This document shows positions 18,224-25,194 of a stretch of 64,000 nt of DNA, piece by piece. Each line of letters starts with the position of its first letter. Position 1 is the stretch's first letter. Below the pieces are notes generated by a model. The model did no database searches, was not told the origin of the DNA, and saw nothing but the letters and a program-made list of their open reading frames with translations. The stretch comes from Sphingomonadaceae bacterium (lineage in GTDB: Bacteria; Pseudomonadota; Alphaproteobacteria; Sphingomonadales; Sphingomonadaceae). The translations under genes were made by a program, and so were the position numbers. The stretch lies in assembly GCA_947476425.1 (NCBI GenBank), contig CANJQJ010000008.1:1-64000 (forward strand), written 5' to 3'.

Positions 18224-20974
18224 TTAGCCCAGCTTGGCAACGCGGCGCCATTCTATCGAAACGATCTCACGTGCCGCTTCCAGCGCGGCCACCAACGCCG
18301 GCCAATCGGCCTGTCCACAGGCCCGCGCTACGAGCGGCTTGCTGGAATCCGGCGGCTCGCTGGCATCCGGCGACACCAGACGCTGCGTGACAAGCATTCG
18401 TGTCAGCAGATTTTGCGCGTCGCCGATCGCCGCACTGAGCAGCCCGGCGTCCGCAAGCGCCTCCGCAGCTACATCCAGCCGGGTATCGAGACCCACATGA
18501 TGCGTCAGCTGGAGGACATGAATTGCAAATTCGCAATCGATCAGGCCACCTTCGGCAAGCTTGACGTCGTAGGGCCCCGCCGGCGGCTTGTGCTTTGCTA
18601 TGTCGGCACGCATCTTCACAGCGTCCGCGAGAAGCGTTTCGATGTCACGCGGGCGTTCCAGCGTTTCGGTGATGATTTTCTGCACGGCTTCGCATGCGGC
18701 GTCAGAGCCATAGATCGGGCGGGCGCGCGTAAGCGCCATATGCTCCCAGGTCCAGGCACCCTCCCGCTGATATTGAGCAAAACTGTCGACAGTGACGGCA
18801 AGTGGCCCCTGCGTGCCGGACGGACGCAATCTCGTATCGACCTCGTATAACGGGCCGGAAAACGTCGGCACGCTCAGCGCCGCGACGACGCGCTGGGCGA
18901 GACGGTTGAAATAGACAGTCGCGCCGATTGGCTTGCGGCCATCGGATTCGGCCTTGAAATCGCCCGTAAACATGAAGACGAGATCGAGATCGGAGGCATG
19001 GGTAAGCGCTCGTCCGCCCAGCCGTCCAAGGGCAAGGATGACGAGTTCACCGCCTGGCACGCGCCCATAGCTTGCTTCGAATTCGGCGATGGTAGCACGG
19101 GTCAGCACGTGCAAGGCAGCCTCTGCGACCCGGGCATAGCCTTGCGACACCGCGATTGGATCGGAGGCCCCTTCGATAATCTGGACACCAAGCGCGAACC
19201 GGCGCTCGCCGACGCGATGGCGAACGCGTTCGAGAAGCATCTGATAGTCGTCGCCCACCTCGGATTCTGCGAAGGCGGTCATCAATTCCGATACTGCCGG
19301 CGGTAGTTCGAGAGCCGTGGCGTCGATCAGGCCATCGAGCAGATTGGCACGTCTCGCGACAGCATCCGCCAGGGTTGGCGCATGGCTCAATATGTCTCCC
19401 AACTGTCGACCAAGCGCGGGCCGAGCCTCGATTAACCGGAACAAGTTAACGGCGGTCGGGAGGCGATTGACCAGGGCATCGAAGCGGGCAAGTGCCGCGT
19501 TGGGATCTGGCGCCTTGCCGAACTGCACGATTAGCGAAGGGAGCATTGCTTCCAGCGCTTCCTGGGCTGCCCTGCTGCGCAACGTACGGGCCTTCGCCTC
19601 GCGCCATCCTTCGATCCGCAGCCGCGCTGCCGAAGGATCCGAAAACCCGGCGGCGGCAAGCTGCGTCTCTAGCAGTTCTCCATCGATCAAAACCCCGTCG
19701 TCGGCATCTCCATCGAGTGAATCGTAGCAATTCCCGACCGCAGCGACGTGCGGTGCGAGGAGGTCGATCAGCTCCCCGCCGTCGCCCAAGCCGTGAAGCC
19801 GCGCGACATTGTCGAGCGCCGAAGTCTCGCGCGGAAGCTTATGCGTTTGCTGGTCGTTAACCATCTGCAGCCGATGCTCGATCGTTCGATAGAGCCGATA
19901 AGCTTGCGACAGCATATGCGCATCGTTCGCAATGATCCGCCCCGCATTTCCAAGCGCGGCCAGCGCATCCAGCGTCGCTGGTGCGCGCAGTGCGGGTTCA
20001 CGGCCGCCATGAATAAGCTGATGGATCTGTGCGAAAAACTCGACCTCGCGAATCCCCCCACGACCCCGCTTGAGGTCATAACCGGGTCCGAATTTCTGGC
20101 CCTGGGCGTGATGATCGCGAATCCGACGCGAAATCGAACGAATTTCGTGAAGAGCGCCATAATCCAGCGCTCGTCGCCACACGAAAGGCCGGATCGCGCC
20201 GAGAAAACGCTGGCCCAATTGGACATCGCCTGCACAGGCGCGAGCGCGAATGAACGCGGCTCGTTCCCACGGCAGCGCGCTCGATTCATAATAGCTGATC
20301 GCCGCCTCGATCGGCAGCGCGGGCGGAGTGACTTCCGGGGATGGCCTGAGCCGCAAGTCGACGCGAAAAACATAACCATCGCCGTCGCGATGCTGGAGCA
20401 ATTCGACGACCCGCTTCGCGACCCGCGTCGCTGCTTCGACCGGTTCCTCGCGCAGACGATGGGGCATCGTCTCAGGATCGAAAATAAGGATCGGATCGAT
20501 ATCCGACGAATAATTCAGTTCGCGGCTGCCATGCTTGCCGAGCGCCAGCGCCGCGAAACCGCGCGGTTCGGCATCCGGATAGCGCTCGCCAAGCGCCGCG
20601 CAAATCGCCCGGTTCAGCGCAAAATCCGCAAACTCCGACAGGAGTTTCACGACATTTTCGAAATCGAGCAAGCCGGCCAGATCGCCCAGCGCCACGCCCA
20701 ACGCAATGCGTTGGCGACAAATTCGCAGATTTCGACCCGTCTCGGCGAGCGGGAAATCAGTATTAATCGCGGATTTCAGCAGGTCGGCGACATGACCGGT
20801 AGCCACTATCGAGGCTATATCCGGGTGTTGCGAGACCAGGGCATGCAGAAAAGGGGCATGCCGAGCAATCCGGTCCAACGCATTCTCGACCTGTTTCATG
20901 GCATGCGTCACGTTCACCCAACGCCCATAGCCGAGCTGGATAAGCTTCGAAAGCCCCATGAAACCGCCCATCAA
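18224..20974 (-). CDS. glnE: Glutamine synthetase adenylyltransferase/adenylyl-removing enzyme
   Basis: Bifunctional regulator that adds AMP to or removes it from glutamine synthetase in response to nitrogen status through PII. It is 916 residues, close to the family norm. Two nucleotidyltransferase domains are visible: the N-terminal deadenylylating half with GKHGSRELNYSSDIDPI at about residues 147-163, and the C-terminal adenylylating half with GRLGGRALTHASDLDLVFMF at about residues 652-671. Central FGPGYDLKRGRGGIREVEFF is also typical. No frameshift is seen. The first in-frame ATGs are closely spaced, so the exact start is uncertain by up to about 25 codons. Confidence 0.95.
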   Translation of the reverse strand: MMGGFMGLSKLIQLGYGRWVNVTHAMKQVENALDRIARHAPFLHALVSQHPDIASIVATGHVADLLKSAINTDFPLAETGRNLRICRQRIALGVALGDLAGLLDFENVVKLLSEFADFALNRAICAALGERYPDAEPRGFAALALGKHGSRELNYSSDIDPILIFDPETMPHRLREEPVEAATRVAKRVVELLQHRDGDGYVFRVDLRLRPSPEVTPPALPIEAAISYYESSALPWERAAFIRARACAGDVQLGQRFLGAIRPFVWRRALDYGALHEIRSISRRIRDHHAQGQKFGPGYDLKRGRGGIREVEFFAQIHQLIHGGREPALRAPATLDALAALGNAGRIIANDAHMLSQAYRLYRTIEHRLQMVNDQQTHKLPRETSALDNVARLHGLGDGGELIDLLAPHVAAVGNCYDSLDGDADDGVLIDGELLETQLAAAGFSDPSAARLRIEGWREAKARTLRSRAAQEALEAMLPSLIVQFGKAPDPNAALARFDALVNRLPTAVNLFRLIEARPALGRQLGDILSHAPTLADAVARRANLLDGLIDATALELPPAVSELMTAFAESEVGDDYQMLLERVRHRVGERRFALGVQIIEGASDPIAVSQGYARVAEAALHVLTRATIAEFEASYGRVPGGELVILALGRLGGRALTHASDLDLVFMFTGDFKAESDGRKPIGATVYFNRLAQRVVAALSVPTFSGPLYEVDTRLRPSGTQGPLAVTVDSFAQYQREGAWTWEHMALTRARPIYGSDAACEAVQKIITETLERPRDIETLLADAVKMRADIAKHKPPAGPYDVKLAEGGLIDCEFAIHVLQLTHHVGLDTRLDVAAEALADAGLLSAAIGDAQNLLTRMLVTQRLVSPDASEPPDSSKPLVARACGQADWPALVAALEAAREIVSIEWRRVAKLG

Positions 20975-20992
20975 GTAATGCGTTGAAGGCGG

Positions 20993-21178
20993 ATGGGATT
21001 AAATGATCATTATACTCCGCCGCGAACTAGATCGTCCGAAACGCGTTTCGTCAGAGCAGCTGCCTTCCATCCACCGCAATCGCAGGGTGTGGGAGACGCG
21101 CTCCGCGCAGCATTTTCGCCAGACACTCCCAGGCTTCCGCCTGACATGGCGATATTGCTCGACCAGTTGAATCAATAA
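20993..21178 (+). CDS. Small NepR-like protein (tentative)
   Basis: A 61-residue frame filling the gap between glnE (divergent) and ecfG (convergent, 3 bases away). Its last 30 residues, VGDALRAAFSPDTPRLPPDM then AILLDQL, follow the layout of the NepR anti-sigma core, which in the nepR of this window reads VGDALRSIYQQTVDEDIPKE followed by FLDILGKL. The N-terminal half is variable and basic. A GAAGG lies just before the ATG, with tight spacing. If real it could be a second EcfG-binding protein; that is inference from similarity and location. Early codons are AT-richer than the neighbours. It could also be a non-coding coincidence. Confidence 0.55.
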   Translation: MGLNDHYTPPRTRSSETRFVRAAAFHPPQSQGVGDALRAAFSPDTPRLPPDMAILLDQLNQ

Positions 21179-21181
21179 AGC

Positions 21182-21814
21182 TCAGCTTCGATCGTTCTTC
21201 GATAGATCATCCACTTGGCCCATGATCTGCTGCAGGGCAGTTTGATCCGGATCGCGTTTATCCTCGCGCCGCGATGGAAGCTTGCCTTCGGAAAGCAAGG
21301 TCTCGAGGGCAACGCGACCGCGTGCCACGCGGCTCTTAATCGTGCCGACAGCGCACCCGCAAATATCAGCTGCCTCCTCATATGAGAAACCGCCCGCACC
21401 TACCAGGATCAGCGCCTCGCGCTGCGCCTGCGGCAAGTGCAGCAGCGCACGTTGCAAGTCGCCAAGTTCGATATGCCGGTCCTGGCCGGCCGGGGCAGCA
21501 AGGATCCTGTCGGCGGTTATTTCATCCCATTCGCCGCGAAAGCGCGCGCGGCGCATCTGGGACAGGAAAAGGTTGCGAAGGATGATGAAGGTCCAGGCAC
21601 GCATGTTCGTGCCGGCTTGGAAGCGCGTTCTTGCAGCCCATGCCTTCAGGAGTGTCTCCTGGACGAGATCGTCGGTAAGATCGCGATTGCCAGACAGCGA
21701 TCGGCCAAATGCGCGAAGATGCGGGATCACCTGTGCCAGTTCGAGCTTGAACTGCTCGTCTGACAGCGGCCGATGCTCCAACTCTCCCGGTGTTTCGTCG
21801 GGAAGTTCGCTCAT
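21182..21814 (-). CDS. ecfG: ECF sigma factor EcfG, general stress response
   Basis: The sigma factor of the alphaproteobacterial general stress response, 210 residues. Region 2 is clear (DLVQETLLKAWAARTRFQAG then RAWTFIILRNLFLSQMRRAR, about residues 49-90). Region 4 follows (LQRALLHLPQAQREALILVG, then EEAADICGCAVGTIKSRVAR, about residues 120-165). The N-terminus is acidic. The EcfG assignment rests on these regions and the nepR/phyR neighbours. It is the second gene after a consensus EcfG-type promoter, so it probably activates its own transcription. GGAAGGGAA lies before the ATG. Confidence 0.93.
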   Translation of the reverse strand: MSELPDETPGELEHRPLSDEQFKLELAQVIPHLRAFGRSLSGNRDLTDDLVQETLLKAWAARTRFQAGTNMRAWTFIILRNLFLSQMRRARFRGEWDEITADRILAAPAGQDRHIELGDLQRALLHLPQAQREALILVGAGGFSYEEAADICGCAVGTIKSRVARGRVALETLLSEGKLPSRREDKRDPDQTALQQIMGQVDDLSKNDRS

Positions 21815-21897: not shown

Positions 21898-22032
21898 TTA
21901 TACTGACCCGCCGATAGCGATCATCGCGACGACCGCGAGCAGTAAAGAAATCGCGAGAACATATCGAACGACGTGTTCCGAGGAGCCGGCACGAGCTCGG
22001 GTGGCATCCACATGTTGTTCTGCGTCATTCAC
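21898..22032 (-). CDS. 44-residue single-pass membrane protein upstream of ecfG
   Basis: A very short frame starting at GTG (22032) and ending TAA, reading MNDAEQHVDATRARAG at the N-terminus. One hydrophobic segment runs from about residue 22 to 42 (VRYVLAISLLLAVVAMIAIG). GGGAGG lies about ten bases upstream of the GTG. It sits 35 bases downstream of a consensus EcfG promoter and 83 bases before ecfG, on the same strand, so co-transcription is likely. Function unknown; a small stress-induced membrane peptide fits the location. The overlapping ATG frame (36 residues) lacks such a helix and is less likely. Confidence 0.7.
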   Translation of the reverse strand: MNDAEQHVDATRARAGSSEHVVRYVLAISLLLAVVAMIAIGGSV

Positions 22033-22108: not shown

Positions 22109-22902
22109 TCAGGCCGGCACGGTCGCCATGTCGAAAAAGAGCGCCTGTGAAATCGCAGCCTTCACAGTGGCGCGCTGGAAGGGCTTGGTGATCAGGAATG
22201 TGGGTTCCGGACGCTCGCCCGTAAGAAGTCGCTCAGGGAATGCGGTGATGAAAATTACCGGCACGCTGAATTGGGACAATATGTCCTTCACGGCATCAAT
22301 GCCTGAACTGTCATCGGCCAGCTGAATATCAGCAAGAATAAGCCCTGGTCGATTGGAGACCGCTTCGGCCACCGCCTCGTCCCGCGTGACTGCCACTGCT
22401 ACGACTTCATGTCCAAGGTCTCGAACGATCGTCTCGAGGTCCATCGCAATGATGGGTTCGTCCTCGATAACGAGAACGCGTGCGCGGGTCTGGCGCCCAA
22501 TCTCGGACAGGGCCTCGGTGACGAGATTTTCAACCTCCTGCGTCGTCGTCTCGATGAGATAGGCGGTGTCCTCGACGGTAAAACCCTCCATTGCCGTCAG
22601 CAACAAAGCCTGACGGGACAGCGGCGTAATTCTGGCAAGGCGAGCCCGCGCAATTTCTTCGTTCGAACTGGTGTGATCGTCGATAACACCACCGTCGATA
22701 TTGCTTGATCCCCAGATTCTCTGGAACGTCGAATACAGGCCCAGTCGCGGATCAACGTCGCTGGGGAAATCGCCTGGTGCTGCGACAATCGCTTCCAATG
22801 TCGCGCGGACTAAGCATCGCCATGCGATTGGGCGCCTGTCAGCGCGCGCGCATAGCGCCGCAGGAAGGGAAGATGCGGCGCGAGCCTCTGACCGAGCGAC
22901 AT
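22109..22902 (-). pseudogene. phyR: General stress response regulator PhyR, with a one-base frameshift
   Basis: PhyR is the anti-anti-sigma factor: phosphorylated, its sigma-like N-terminal domain captures NepR and frees EcfG. The N-terminus starts at ATG 22902 (MSLGQRLAPHLPFLRRYARA) and runs 30 residues to SHGDA, then meets TAG at 22810-22812. The rest (VRATLEAIVAAPGDFPSDVD and on) continues in another frame to 22109. The family has a Tyr between these pieces; the sequence shows GCT-TA-GTC where GCT-TAY-GTC is expected, so one base is missing. The C-terminal receiver is intact: VIEDEPIIAMD, the phospho-acceptor Asp in ILADIQLADD, and TKPF. Either a true null allele or a sequence error. Confidence 0.85.
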
Positions 22903-23043: not shown

Positions 23044-23069
23044 GGAACCATCGACCGAGATTTTTGTTT
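23044..23069 (+). promoter_or_regulatory. Possible EcfG-type promoter for nepR (weak), in the phyR-nepR gap
   Basis: GGAAC at 23044-23048, 16 bases, then TGTTT: one mismatch from GGAAC-N16-CGTT. It is oriented toward nepR, about 145 bases upstream of its likely start. Nothing else is recognised in the 310-base space between phyR and nepR, and no matching site was found for phyR on the other strand. Confidence 0.35.
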
Positions 23070-23212
23070 CCATCGCCACGCAGGCATTTTATGCCGATAC
23101 ATGTCGTCCCTGGTCGAGGGTCTGCAGGATCGCATAGTGGGTCGGTTCAGCAACGACCTTAGGAATGGCATCCCGGAGCTCCCGCGGCCGGGACATTACG
23201 GGTTTCGAGGGG

Positions 23213-23404
23213 ATGGAAGTCTTGGCAGCAGATGACAATCAGGTGAAACGCAAGGCGCGTTCCAGCCGGTCTGCCAAGCTTGCCCAGGATGCTGAAAAGT
23301 CCCTGGACTTGCCCGTTGGCGATGCACTGCGTTCAATTTACCAACAGACCGTCGATGAGGATATCCCCAAGGAATTTCTCGACATCCTCGGCAAGCTCGC
23401 CTGA
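23213..23404 (+). CDS. nepR: Anti-sigma factor NepR
   Basis: Small helical protein that sequesters EcfG until phosphorylated PhyR displaces it. The core VGDALRSIYQQTVDEDIPKE followed by FLDILGKL occupies the last 30 residues and is typical of NepR. The N-terminal part is basic and flexible (NQVKRKARSSRSAKLAQDAE). Three starts are possible: ATG 23165, ATG 23213 (GAGGGG directly before it) and TTG 23222, which has GAGGGG at ideal spacing. The gene is divergent from phyR and separated from ecfG, whereas nepR-ecfG operons are the usual arrangement. Confidence 0.88.
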   Translation: MEVLAADDNQVKRKARSSRSAKLAQDAEKSLDLPVGDALRSIYQQTVDEDIPKEFLDILGKLA

Positions 23405-23512: not shown

Positions 23513-24817
23513 GTGCAACTTCAAAACGAGGTTGCCGACGGTTTCGCGATGTTCGATCCCGATGGCAGGCTTATCTGCGCAACACCGCATTATTCCAACC
23601 TTTCTGCCTATTTTCCTGCCGATGATGGAACCTTCGGGGTTCGCCTCGTTGCGCCAAGGAAACTGGTCCGGACGAACATCGCGACCGGGAGCGGTGGCTA
23701 TTTTGGAATTGTCGAATTTTCCGCGAGACACGTAGCCGGGTTCATCCGACCGGCTACGGACGCGAAGATTGGAATCACGCTGAGGCAGGGCGGCCAGCTT
23801 ATCCCGCTGGCTACAGAGCGAAGCGACAATCCTATTGCGCGAATTATCCGGGTTTCCGTCCCCGTTGCAGGTGGCCAGTTCAGCCTGGAAATTCGCATGC
23901 CTATCAATCCGATAGGCGCACTTGAAATTCTGCTGATTCTCTTGCCGATCCTGATGTGGGCTTCCGGCGCCGTGATTGGGTGGTTCGTGGTCGAACGCCT
24001 GCTGTTGCATCCCCTGGGCCAAATGCAAAAGGCCATCAGCGCCTTCAACGCCGGCGATGGACCCTTGTTGATTCCGAAACTCAGGACGCCAGCCCTGGAG
24101 ATCAGCGCGCTCGGAGAATCCTTCTTGCATGCGACCGAAGCGCTCACCCGCCACGAGCGTGAACTCGCTGAAGCGCTCGCCCGCCAGAAGCTCCTGACGC
24201 GAGAGGTCCACCATCGGGTCAAGAACAACCTCCAGGTCGTTTCCAGCCTCATCAATCTTCATGCCCGCGGCGCCCAAGAGCCGCTCGTGACCGAAGCATA
24301 TTCCTCAATCCAGCGGCGAGTCGATGCTCTGGCGGTCGTTTATCGTAATTATTATGCCGAGCTTGAACAGAGTGTCGGCGTATCCTTGCGCACTCTGATC
24401 GGAGAGATTGCTTCCAATCTTCGAGCATCTAGCAATTCACCTGAGCGCTCCAGTGCCATCGGCCTCAATTTGATGACGGCATCCGCCAGTCAAGACAGTG
24501 CGGTCCCGATTGCGTTTCTGATTACCGAGATCGTCGAACTGATCATGCTGCGGGATCCAGCCGCTCCGATATCAATCAGCCTTGGTCCAATTCGTGACGA
24601 ACCCGAGCGAGCCTGTCTTTCGATTTCATCACCGGCCCTGATGGAATCAGCTTCGGCGGGAGCGCCCGCCGCCGAACGTTTTCAGCGAATCATTGGCGGC
24701 CTGGCGCGCCAGCTTCGTTCACACCTGGATCTCGACGTCGACGAAGGTCGATATACGGTTGAGATCCGCATTCTTTCGGACGTTGTCCCGATCGACCAGG
24801 ATAATGACTTGGTCTGA
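23513..24817 (+). CDS. HisKA_2-type sensor kinase of the stress locus, N-terminally truncated
   Basis: 434 residues from a GTG start. A periplasmic-like sensor segment (GFAMFDPDGRLICATPHYSN onward) leads to one membrane helix (LEILLILLPILMWASGAVIG, about residues 144-163), a HAMP-like linker and a HisKA_2 dimerisation domain with phosphoacceptor His in LTREVHHRVKNNLQVVSSLI at about residues 230-249. The C-terminal ATPase-like region is poorly conserved, as in other sphingomonad GSR kinases. Upstream, frame 23422-23625 encodes MATTSAPKLPQTLDVEHLMP and PLRFSTGLGA, which looks like the usual N-terminus before the first membrane helix. That helix and part of the sensor domain are missing and the join is out of frame, suggesting an internal deletion. 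Confidence 0.75.
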   Translation: MQLQNEVADGFAMFDPDGRLICATPHYSNLSAYFPADDGTFGVRLVAPRKLVRTNIATGSGGYFGIVEFSARHVAGFIRPATDAKIGITLRQGGQLIPLATERSDNPIARIIRVSVPVAGGQFSLEIRMPINPIGALEILLILLPILMWASGAVIGWFVVERLLLHPLGQMQKAISAFNAGDGPLLIPKLRTPALEISALGESFLHATEALTRHERELAEALARQKLLTREVHHRVKNNLQVVSSLINLHARGAQEPLVTEAYSSIQRRVDALAVVYRNYYAELEQSVGVSLRTLIGEIASNLRASSNSPERSSAIGLNLMTASASQDSAVPIAFLITEIVELIMLRDPAAPISISLGPIRDEPERACLSISSPALMESASAGAPAAERFQRIIGGLARQLRSHLDLDVDEGRYTVEIRILSDVVPIDQDNDLV

Positions 24818-24990: not shown

Positions 24991-25016
24991 GGAACCTTTG
25001 CGCAACATCGCGCATT
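24991..25016 (+). promoter_or_regulatory. Possible EcfG-type promoter upstream of the entericidin-like gene
   Basis: GGAAC at 24991-24995, 17 bases, then CATT: one mismatch from the GGAAC-N16/17-CGTT pattern, 44 bases before the entericidin start. Weak by itself, more plausible because it adjoins the stress locus. The rest of the 242-base gap after the kinase shows no gene. Confidence 0.4.
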
Positions 25017-25059
25017 GATTGGCCGTTCGCCATGTGGCGTCTACAAGGAAGGATATCGA

Positions 25060-25194
25060 ATGCGCAAAATTCTTACCATCGCGATGATCGCTAGCGGTCT
25101 GATGGCCGCAGCGTGCAACACCGTCGAAGGTGCTGGCAAGGACGTGAAATCAGCGGGCACCGCGGTTTCCAATGCCGCTAACGACGCGAAATAA
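25060..25194 (+). CDS. Entericidin A/B-family lipoprotein
   Basis: A 44-residue small lipoprotein. It begins MRKILTIAMIASGLMAAACN, a signal peptide with lipobox AAAC ending at Cys 19. The mature part, NTVEGAGKDVKSAGTAVSNA, is the common entericidin pattern (NTV.G.GKDV...G.A...AA). AAGGA precedes the ATG. Entericidins are toxin/antidote-like lipoproteins in E. coli; in alphaproteobacteria such small genes are frequently stress induced. The possible EcfG promoter upstream fits that idea. Confidence 0.88.
   Translation: MRKILTIAMIASGLMAAACNTVEGAGKDVKSAGTAVSNAANDAK

Follow-up and report, generated by a model that had tools for sequence, protein, structure and literature searches.

The locus poses the question of whether the short frame between glnE and ecfG in a member of the Sphingomonadaceae encodes a second NepR-like small protein, and on which partner such a protein would act. 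The window, i.e., the whole stretch of 64,000 nucleotides analysed in this study, holds this frame within a series of general stress response genes (Table 1). A sequence-only reading had proposed two NepR-like proteins with one EcfG, and had regarded them as a noteworthy branch of the general stress response. Judged by its sequence, the frame very probably represents nepR2 of this sphingomonad.

Table 1. Features of the nepR2 locus, in coordinates of the window
Feature	Position	Strand	Remarks
glnE, conserved neighbour of nepR2	18224..20974	-	start codon uncertain
EcfG-type promoter of nepR2 (candidate from sequence)	20960..20984	+	GAAAC-N16-CGTT; ends 8 nt before ATG
nepR2 (very probable)	20993..21178	+	61 aa; ATG 20993, TAA 21176-21178
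ecfG, general stress response sigma factor	21182..21814	-	Sigma70_r2 and Sigma70_r4_2 matches
Small ORF with one hydrophobic stretch (by eye)	21898..22032	-	position of Fr1 #1446, by gene number
phyR, split over two frames	22109..22902	-	break near 22813-22816; PhyR_sigma-like and Response_reg matches
EcfG-type promoter before nepR	23044..23068	+	GGAAC-N16-TGTT
nepR, canonical anti-sigma factor	23165..23404	+	PF18557; start codon uncertain
HisKA_2 histidine kinase	23513..24817	+	position of Fr1 phyT; N-terminal part missing
Entericidin-like small ORF	24991-25194	+	PF08085, 35.2 bits; place of Fr1 #1442, by gene number

The frame and its kinship to NepR

The nepR2 frame is divergent from glnE and convergent with ecfG, ending 3 nt before the ecfG stop (21182, other strand). 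It contains the core VGDALRAAF...LPPDMAILLDQL, in which the linker between the two halves is one residue shorter than in NepR. In an alignment of the window protein with 16 relatives, G34, A36, L37, and R38 (window numbering) are invariant, and P27, L55, and L56 are nearly so.

Searches with the 61-aa frame as a single sequence found no match in Pfam, NCBIfam, or PDB; in the Pfam search the protein did not reach the PF18557 cut-off. The canonical nepR scored 28.9 bits against that cut-off of 25.7 and is the sole PF18557 match at E 0.001 in the source genome. Among 17 NepR2 members scanned, three matched PF18557, all weakly; the best of them (E 0.015) would still fall below the cut-off, judged against the score of nepR. 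The family thus appears to be missed by Pfam, at least for these 17 members.

Profiles gave a different result from PF18557. A NepR2 profile was built from 16 relatives, with the window sequence excluded; the relatives came from locus L002, from the first genome search, and from the regions adjoining ecfG in the 30 top-scoring ecfG loci, one of which is that of the window. When the 1447 stop-to-stop frames of at least 20 aa in the window were scored with this profile, the nepR2 frame ranked first (51.7 bits, E 4.7e-15), followed by the canonical nepR (24.7 bits, E 1.2e-6); the third frame reached only E 0.53. A profile of 53 relatives' canonical NepRs ranked nepR first and the nepR2 frame second (16.3 bits, E 8e-4), with the third frame at E 0.95. 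Profile homology between the window protein and NepR is thus present in both directions. None of 5000 shuffled versions of the nepR2 protein equalled the real score (16.4 bits), and the top shuffle scored 9.2.

Structural and profile-profile comparisons agree. A NepR2 profile that included the window, run against PDB (177,635 sequences), had a single match at E up to 1, namely 2LFW_B (E 4.2e-5), whose record reads NepR anti sigma factor. Their alignment requires one single-residue gap in the linker, so that the core described by the sequence-only reading, in NepR order and one residue shorter, is found in the profile as well. With hhalign, NepR2 (33 rows) matched NepR (53 rows) with a probability of 97.9, and 60 column shuffles gave at most 2.4. 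Keeping two NepR-like rows (loci L108 and L109, see below) changed the values to 97.4 and 98.1, with shuffles of at most 14.1. The proposed HMM comparison with the NepR family therefore bore out the relationship, by profile-profile comparison and by the NepR profile, with the exception of PF18557 itself. A regular-expression tally of the distance separating the core halves was ambiguous and was set aside.

NepR2 and NepR (PF18557; 2LFW_B) thus share a core of two parts, G-x-A-L-R-x-x-[FY] followed by LL-x-x-L, as well as an EcfG-type promoter. They differ in the linker, in the lack of a Pfam match for the window protein, and in place, NepR2 lying beside glnE and NepR lying divergent from phyR. 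Two further differences, in the -35 box and in the distance from promoter to start codon, are described below.

Conservation among relatives

A first single-sequence search covered 59 genomes, none of the same genus as the source; apart from the window, three sequences matched below E 0.001, and many others were weak matches. Synteny around ecfG was used instead. A pattern scan of genome contigs found one relative, L002, whose ecfG frame is 82% identical to that of the window. In a family search with EcfG, 166 of 199 genomes matched at 1e-60. From the 64 best-scoring ecfG loci outside the source genome, 60 were examined (G090, G166, G024, and G132 were left out). A frame was accepted if it was NepR-like, faced ecfG, lay no more than 400 bp from where the ecfG match ends, and had a profile E up to 0.05.

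Such a facing frame occurs in 35 of the 60 loci, some of the matches being weak, as this threshold allows. When each frame was scored with itself left out, 33 of the 35 resembled the NepR2 profile more than the NepR profile. The other two, in L108 (4047-4280, +) and L109 (5187-4789, -), fit NepR better than NepR2 and were excluded from the NepR2 count; each of these NepR-fitting frames stands in the place of nepR2 and has a GGAAC promoter. By the rule used, neither locus has a separate nepR. In view of this, of the fit to NepR, and of the GGAAC box, the frame may be the NepR of these strains, and nepR has perhaps moved into the place of nepR2 in their genomes.

In L120 a NepR2-like frame overlaps the end of ecfG and so lies outside the facing-frame rule. 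In eight more genomes (L063, L064, L074, L078, L090, L093, L100, and L113), nepR2 is found elsewhere and no glnE adjoins ecfG. Taken together, the facing NepR2 frames, L120, and the eight displaced genes place nepR2 in 42 of the 60 genomes by these criteria; weaker candidates in L076, L098, and L115 were left uncounted. The same criteria find no nepR2 in the remaining 18 genomes, of which two have a NepR-like frame at that position. Ten nepR2 loci of this displaced kind (L130-L139, including G090 and G166) were read, and glnE adjoins nepR2 in nine; the tenth (G034) starts at the contig start. Where ecfG lies apart, nepR2 thus tends to stay with glnE. In G090, ecfG stands at a contig end, so that nepR2 and ecfG may be neighbours there too.

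A count of 67 of the 199 family genomes with a profile match at E 0.01 was rejected as a measure of NepR2, because its matches mix NepR2 with canonical NepR. In wider samples, matches at E up to 1e-8 occurred in at least 25 of 296 order genomes and at least 2 of 289 class genomes (source genome included), which are lower bounds as 22-23 candidates were scored per genome. All of these matches fell within the window's own family, the order sample being given without the number of its genomes from outside that family. NepR2, described in one strain, is hence indicated as a family of proteins in many members of this bacterial family.

Promoter and start codon

The sequence G-N-AAC-N16/17-[CTG]GTT was found upstream of the facing frame in 32 of 35 loci, compared with 6.2% of random windows from the same loci; it is absent upstream in L070, L083, and L085. 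A looser promoter scan matched 33 of the 35 loci against 6.9 expected. The first possible start (in-frame ATG or GTG) follows the -10 box at 8-9 nt in 28 of the 32, and at 3, 10, 11, and 11 nt in the others. Among these 32 loci, 23 carry C at position two of the -35 box and 7 carry A; the remaining 2, L108 and L109, carry G. For the NepR2 loci alone, a promoter of the type G(C/A)AAC-N16/17-CGTT was present in 30 of 33, never with G, and 26 of these 30 have the 8-9 nt spacing. The pattern also occurs at 7 of the 10 further nepR2 loci.

The canonical nepR of the same loci differs. Its promoter was matched in 39 of 53 cases within a longer search window, GGAAC made up 39 of 41 matches, and the first in-frame start codon follows the promoter by 6 to 146 nt. 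Hence, the -35 box is G(C/A)AAC for NepR2 and mostly GGAAC for NepR, and only the start codon of nepR2 stands at a fixed short distance from its promoter. NepR2 can thus be recognised by its location next to glnE together with an EcfG promoter that precedes the start codon by 8-9 nt.

The conserved predicted promoter suggests that nepR2 may be under EcfG control in the window. Given the usual distance between a -10 box and the transcription start site, the transcript would begin near the ATG. A distance of 8-9 nt between -10 box and start codon suggests a leaderless message, and on this spacing the nepR2 mRNA is probably leaderless. A literature search for leaderless mRNA in connection with EcfG returned nothing on point, and the word leaderless does not occur in the main text of the paper on Sphingomonas melonis Fr1 (PMC6599016).

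The conservation also bears on whether the frame is a gene at all. A chance frame between glnE and ecfG might be suspected from its shortness, from the lack of a single-sequence match, and from frames of similar length on the other strand. Against this stand the conserved sequence, place, promoter, and start spacing, as well as dN below dS in all 8 pairs of related loci (pairs chosen by the author, with dS often saturated). We find a chance origin scarcely credible, and it is refuted as far as sequence allows. Conservation in relatives, which the sequence-only reading had named as one point on which its proposal could fail, was found at all these levels, and its second NepR-like small protein beside ecfG proved to be a real frame, related to NepR by profiles, by shuffling, and by the 2LFW_B match.

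Partner and mode of action

NepR2 was named in 2019 as gene #1448 of Sphingomonas melonis Fr1, where it adjoins ecfG (#1447) (Gottschlich et al., PMC6599016). According to that paper, Fr1 carries one EcfG, and NepR2 belongs to the EcfG regulon, with a stress induction slightly under the paper's cut-off. Knockout of Fr1 nepR2 raises the general stress response and overexpression lowers it; PhyR co-precipitated with NepR2, and the authors suggest that NepR2 may form no complex with EcfG (PMC6599016). The Fr1 series runs phyT #1443, nepR #1444, phyR #1445, #1446, ecfG #1447, nepR2 #1448; #1446 is strongly EcfG-dependent, and #1442 is a small secreted protein (PMC6599016).

The window order nepR2-ecfG-small ORF-phyR-nepR-kinase-entericidin matches Fr1 #1448 to #1442, the Fr1 order being read from gene numbers. 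Among the residue changes reported for Fr1 NepR2, those of L31 and F35 mattered, and those of R32 and M46 had no effect (PMC6599016). These four residues correspond to L37, F41, R38, and M52 of the window protein, with one constant offset; as changes of R32 and M46 were without effect in Fr1, their two matches say little about function. The window protein and Fr1 NepR2 therefore have in common the place by ecfG, the gene-number order, the NepR-like C-terminal core, and the spacing of four residues. EcfG control was shown in Fr1, whereas the window offers an EcfG-type promoter sequence. Unlike in Fr1, phyR and the kinase are damaged in the window, and the likeness is one of gene order and residue positions. 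From the similar gene series and residue spacing, we take the frame as a NepR2 orthologue and its mechanism as competition for PhyR.

Comparable proteins are known elsewhere. In 2016, Methylobacterium NepR homologues were described that bind PhyR but no EcfG (PMC4814048): in M. extorquens, no interaction with an EcfG protein was seen for any of the three homologues, and PhyR was bound by two. One protein of this species, MexAM1_META2p0735, is likened to the window protein by description only; it is NepR-like with an EcfG-type promoter, bound PhyR, had no EcfG binding found, and had a negative effect (PMC4814048). NepR2 of Sphingopyxis granuli TFA shares the name, the NepR likeness, and an EcfG-type promoter (PMC7083833). 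Unlike the window gene, it lies upstream of ecfG1 in one operon with a 4 bp overlap (PMC7083833), and because of this different place the two may be distinct genes despite their common name.

These findings allow two modes of action to be weighed. The protein could be a second true anti-sigma factor that binds and sequesters EcfG directly, as NepR does; a NepR-like core beside ecfG would suit this, and the lowered response upon overexpression in Fr1 would fit too (PMC6599016). By contrast, Fr1 NepR2 and EcfG proved unstable upon co-expression, whereas the pair of NepR and EcfG did not (data not shown by the authors), and NepR2 pulled down PhyR (PMC6599016). The M. extorquens homologues, which failed to interact with EcfG (two of the three binding PhyR; PMC4814048), and the linker one residue shorter than that of NepR also speak against direct sequestration, which we regard as unlikely. 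By analogy with Fr1, PhyR rather than EcfG is the likely target of NepR2. The earlier proposal was thus right in kind: a second NepR-like protein does lie beside ecfG. Two NepR-like proteins with one EcfG are no new branch, having been published for S. melonis Fr1 in 2019 (PMC6599016), and the likely target is PhyR.

We therefore consider it highly probable that the frame is nepR2, the orthologue of Fr1 #1448, and that it serves as an EcfG-driven, PhyR-binding brake acting by negative feedback. Free EcfG would transcribe nepR2 from the promoter in Table 1, giving an mRNA that starts at or next to the ATG. NepR2, with its two short NepR core motifs, would dock on the sigma-like domain of PhyR and compete with NepR for it; NepR could then recapture EcfG, and the response would be turned down. 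The gene, its NepR kinship, its conserved place, and its conserved promoter sequence are established here; from the Fr1 work we infer PhyR binding, the negative effect, and the lack of a stable EcfG complex. Counted against this reading are the missing single-sequence match to PF18557, the 18 of 60 genomes without nepR2, and a PhyR partner that is frameshifted in the window. Such a brake would be transcribed by the very sigma factor it restrains and, if its mRNA is leaderless, could need no ribosome binding site. The kind of protein was already known; this study adds the breadth of the family, the tie to glnE, the fixed distance from promoter to start, and the occurrence of the brake beside a broken target.

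The damaged phyR and kinase

The phyR of the window, already suspected to be broken, is indeed split. When compared with PhyR of L079, residues 1-30 lie in frame -2 and residues 30-264 in frame -1, joining near 22813. PhyR stands in a single frame in 59 of the 60 relatives' loci; in L087, no PhyR match was found in its stretch. No second PhyR was found in the source genome, where the other PF22233 match lies in an ECF sigma factor that lacks a receiver domain. A literature search for a phyR pseudogene in the Sphingomonas general stress response found nothing on point.

The neighbouring kinase is damaged as well. It aligns from residue 77 of the 512 residues of the L079 kinase (counted from its RLSTG), and lacks the N-terminal part that includes the first membrane helix of relatives. 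A remnant, MPERPLRFSTGLG, is present in another frame from 23476. With this remnant only some tens of bases upstream, the intervening stretch of the kinase is missing and not merely diverged. By motif, the kinase N-terminus is in frame in 24 of 60 relatives. Among the remaining 36, a kinase match is lacking in two; the others are off-motif, mostly in frames of more than 500 aa and some near 350-430 aa, so that the window is not alone in having a kinase shortened at its N-terminus.

As phyR is broken in this assembly, the brake may have lost its target. With both phyR and the kinase damaged, nepR2 could be an intact but idle relic of a general stress response that is being lost in the lineage, a reading compatible with a PhyR-binding brake. 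The split of phyR, which is a single frame in 59 of the 60 loci of relatives, the kinase without its N-terminus, and the failure to find another PhyR in the genome all point in this direction. On the other hand, no damage is seen in nepR2, ecfG, nepR, or their promoter sequences, and the observation comes from one genome, in which the phyR break may be real decay or partly an assembly error. Overall, the loss of the response is possible but doubtful. A still bolder reading, to which we give very little weight, is that the lineage lost PhyR as a working switch and kept NepR2 for another purpose, e.g., direct or conditional control of EcfG; the partner switch would then have been rewired around a brake run from a leaderless EcfG promoter. 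An intact brake beside a broken target would, provided the break is real, offer a natural way of testing whether NepR2 acts solely via PhyR.

Neighbouring genes and side observations

Two other genes of the locus also have EcfG-type promoters. The small ORF at the position of Fr1 #1446, which has no Pfam match, is preceded by a perfect GGAAC-N16-CGTT promoter (22091-22067, -), and the entericidin-like ORF by GGAAC-N17-CATT.

Some of the profile hits in relatives fall inside ecfG frames. EcfG frames with a NepR-like N-terminal extension, with alignments shown for both, were found in L103 (5329-4451, -) and L108 (5148-4363, -); an EcfG of this form is mentioned for M. extorquens (PMC4814048). 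NepR2-profile matches were also seen in L140 (3629-3069, -) and L142 (2305-2940, +), in stretches with no glnE or ecfG match; in L142, an EcfG-type promoter lies 30 nt before the first start codon.
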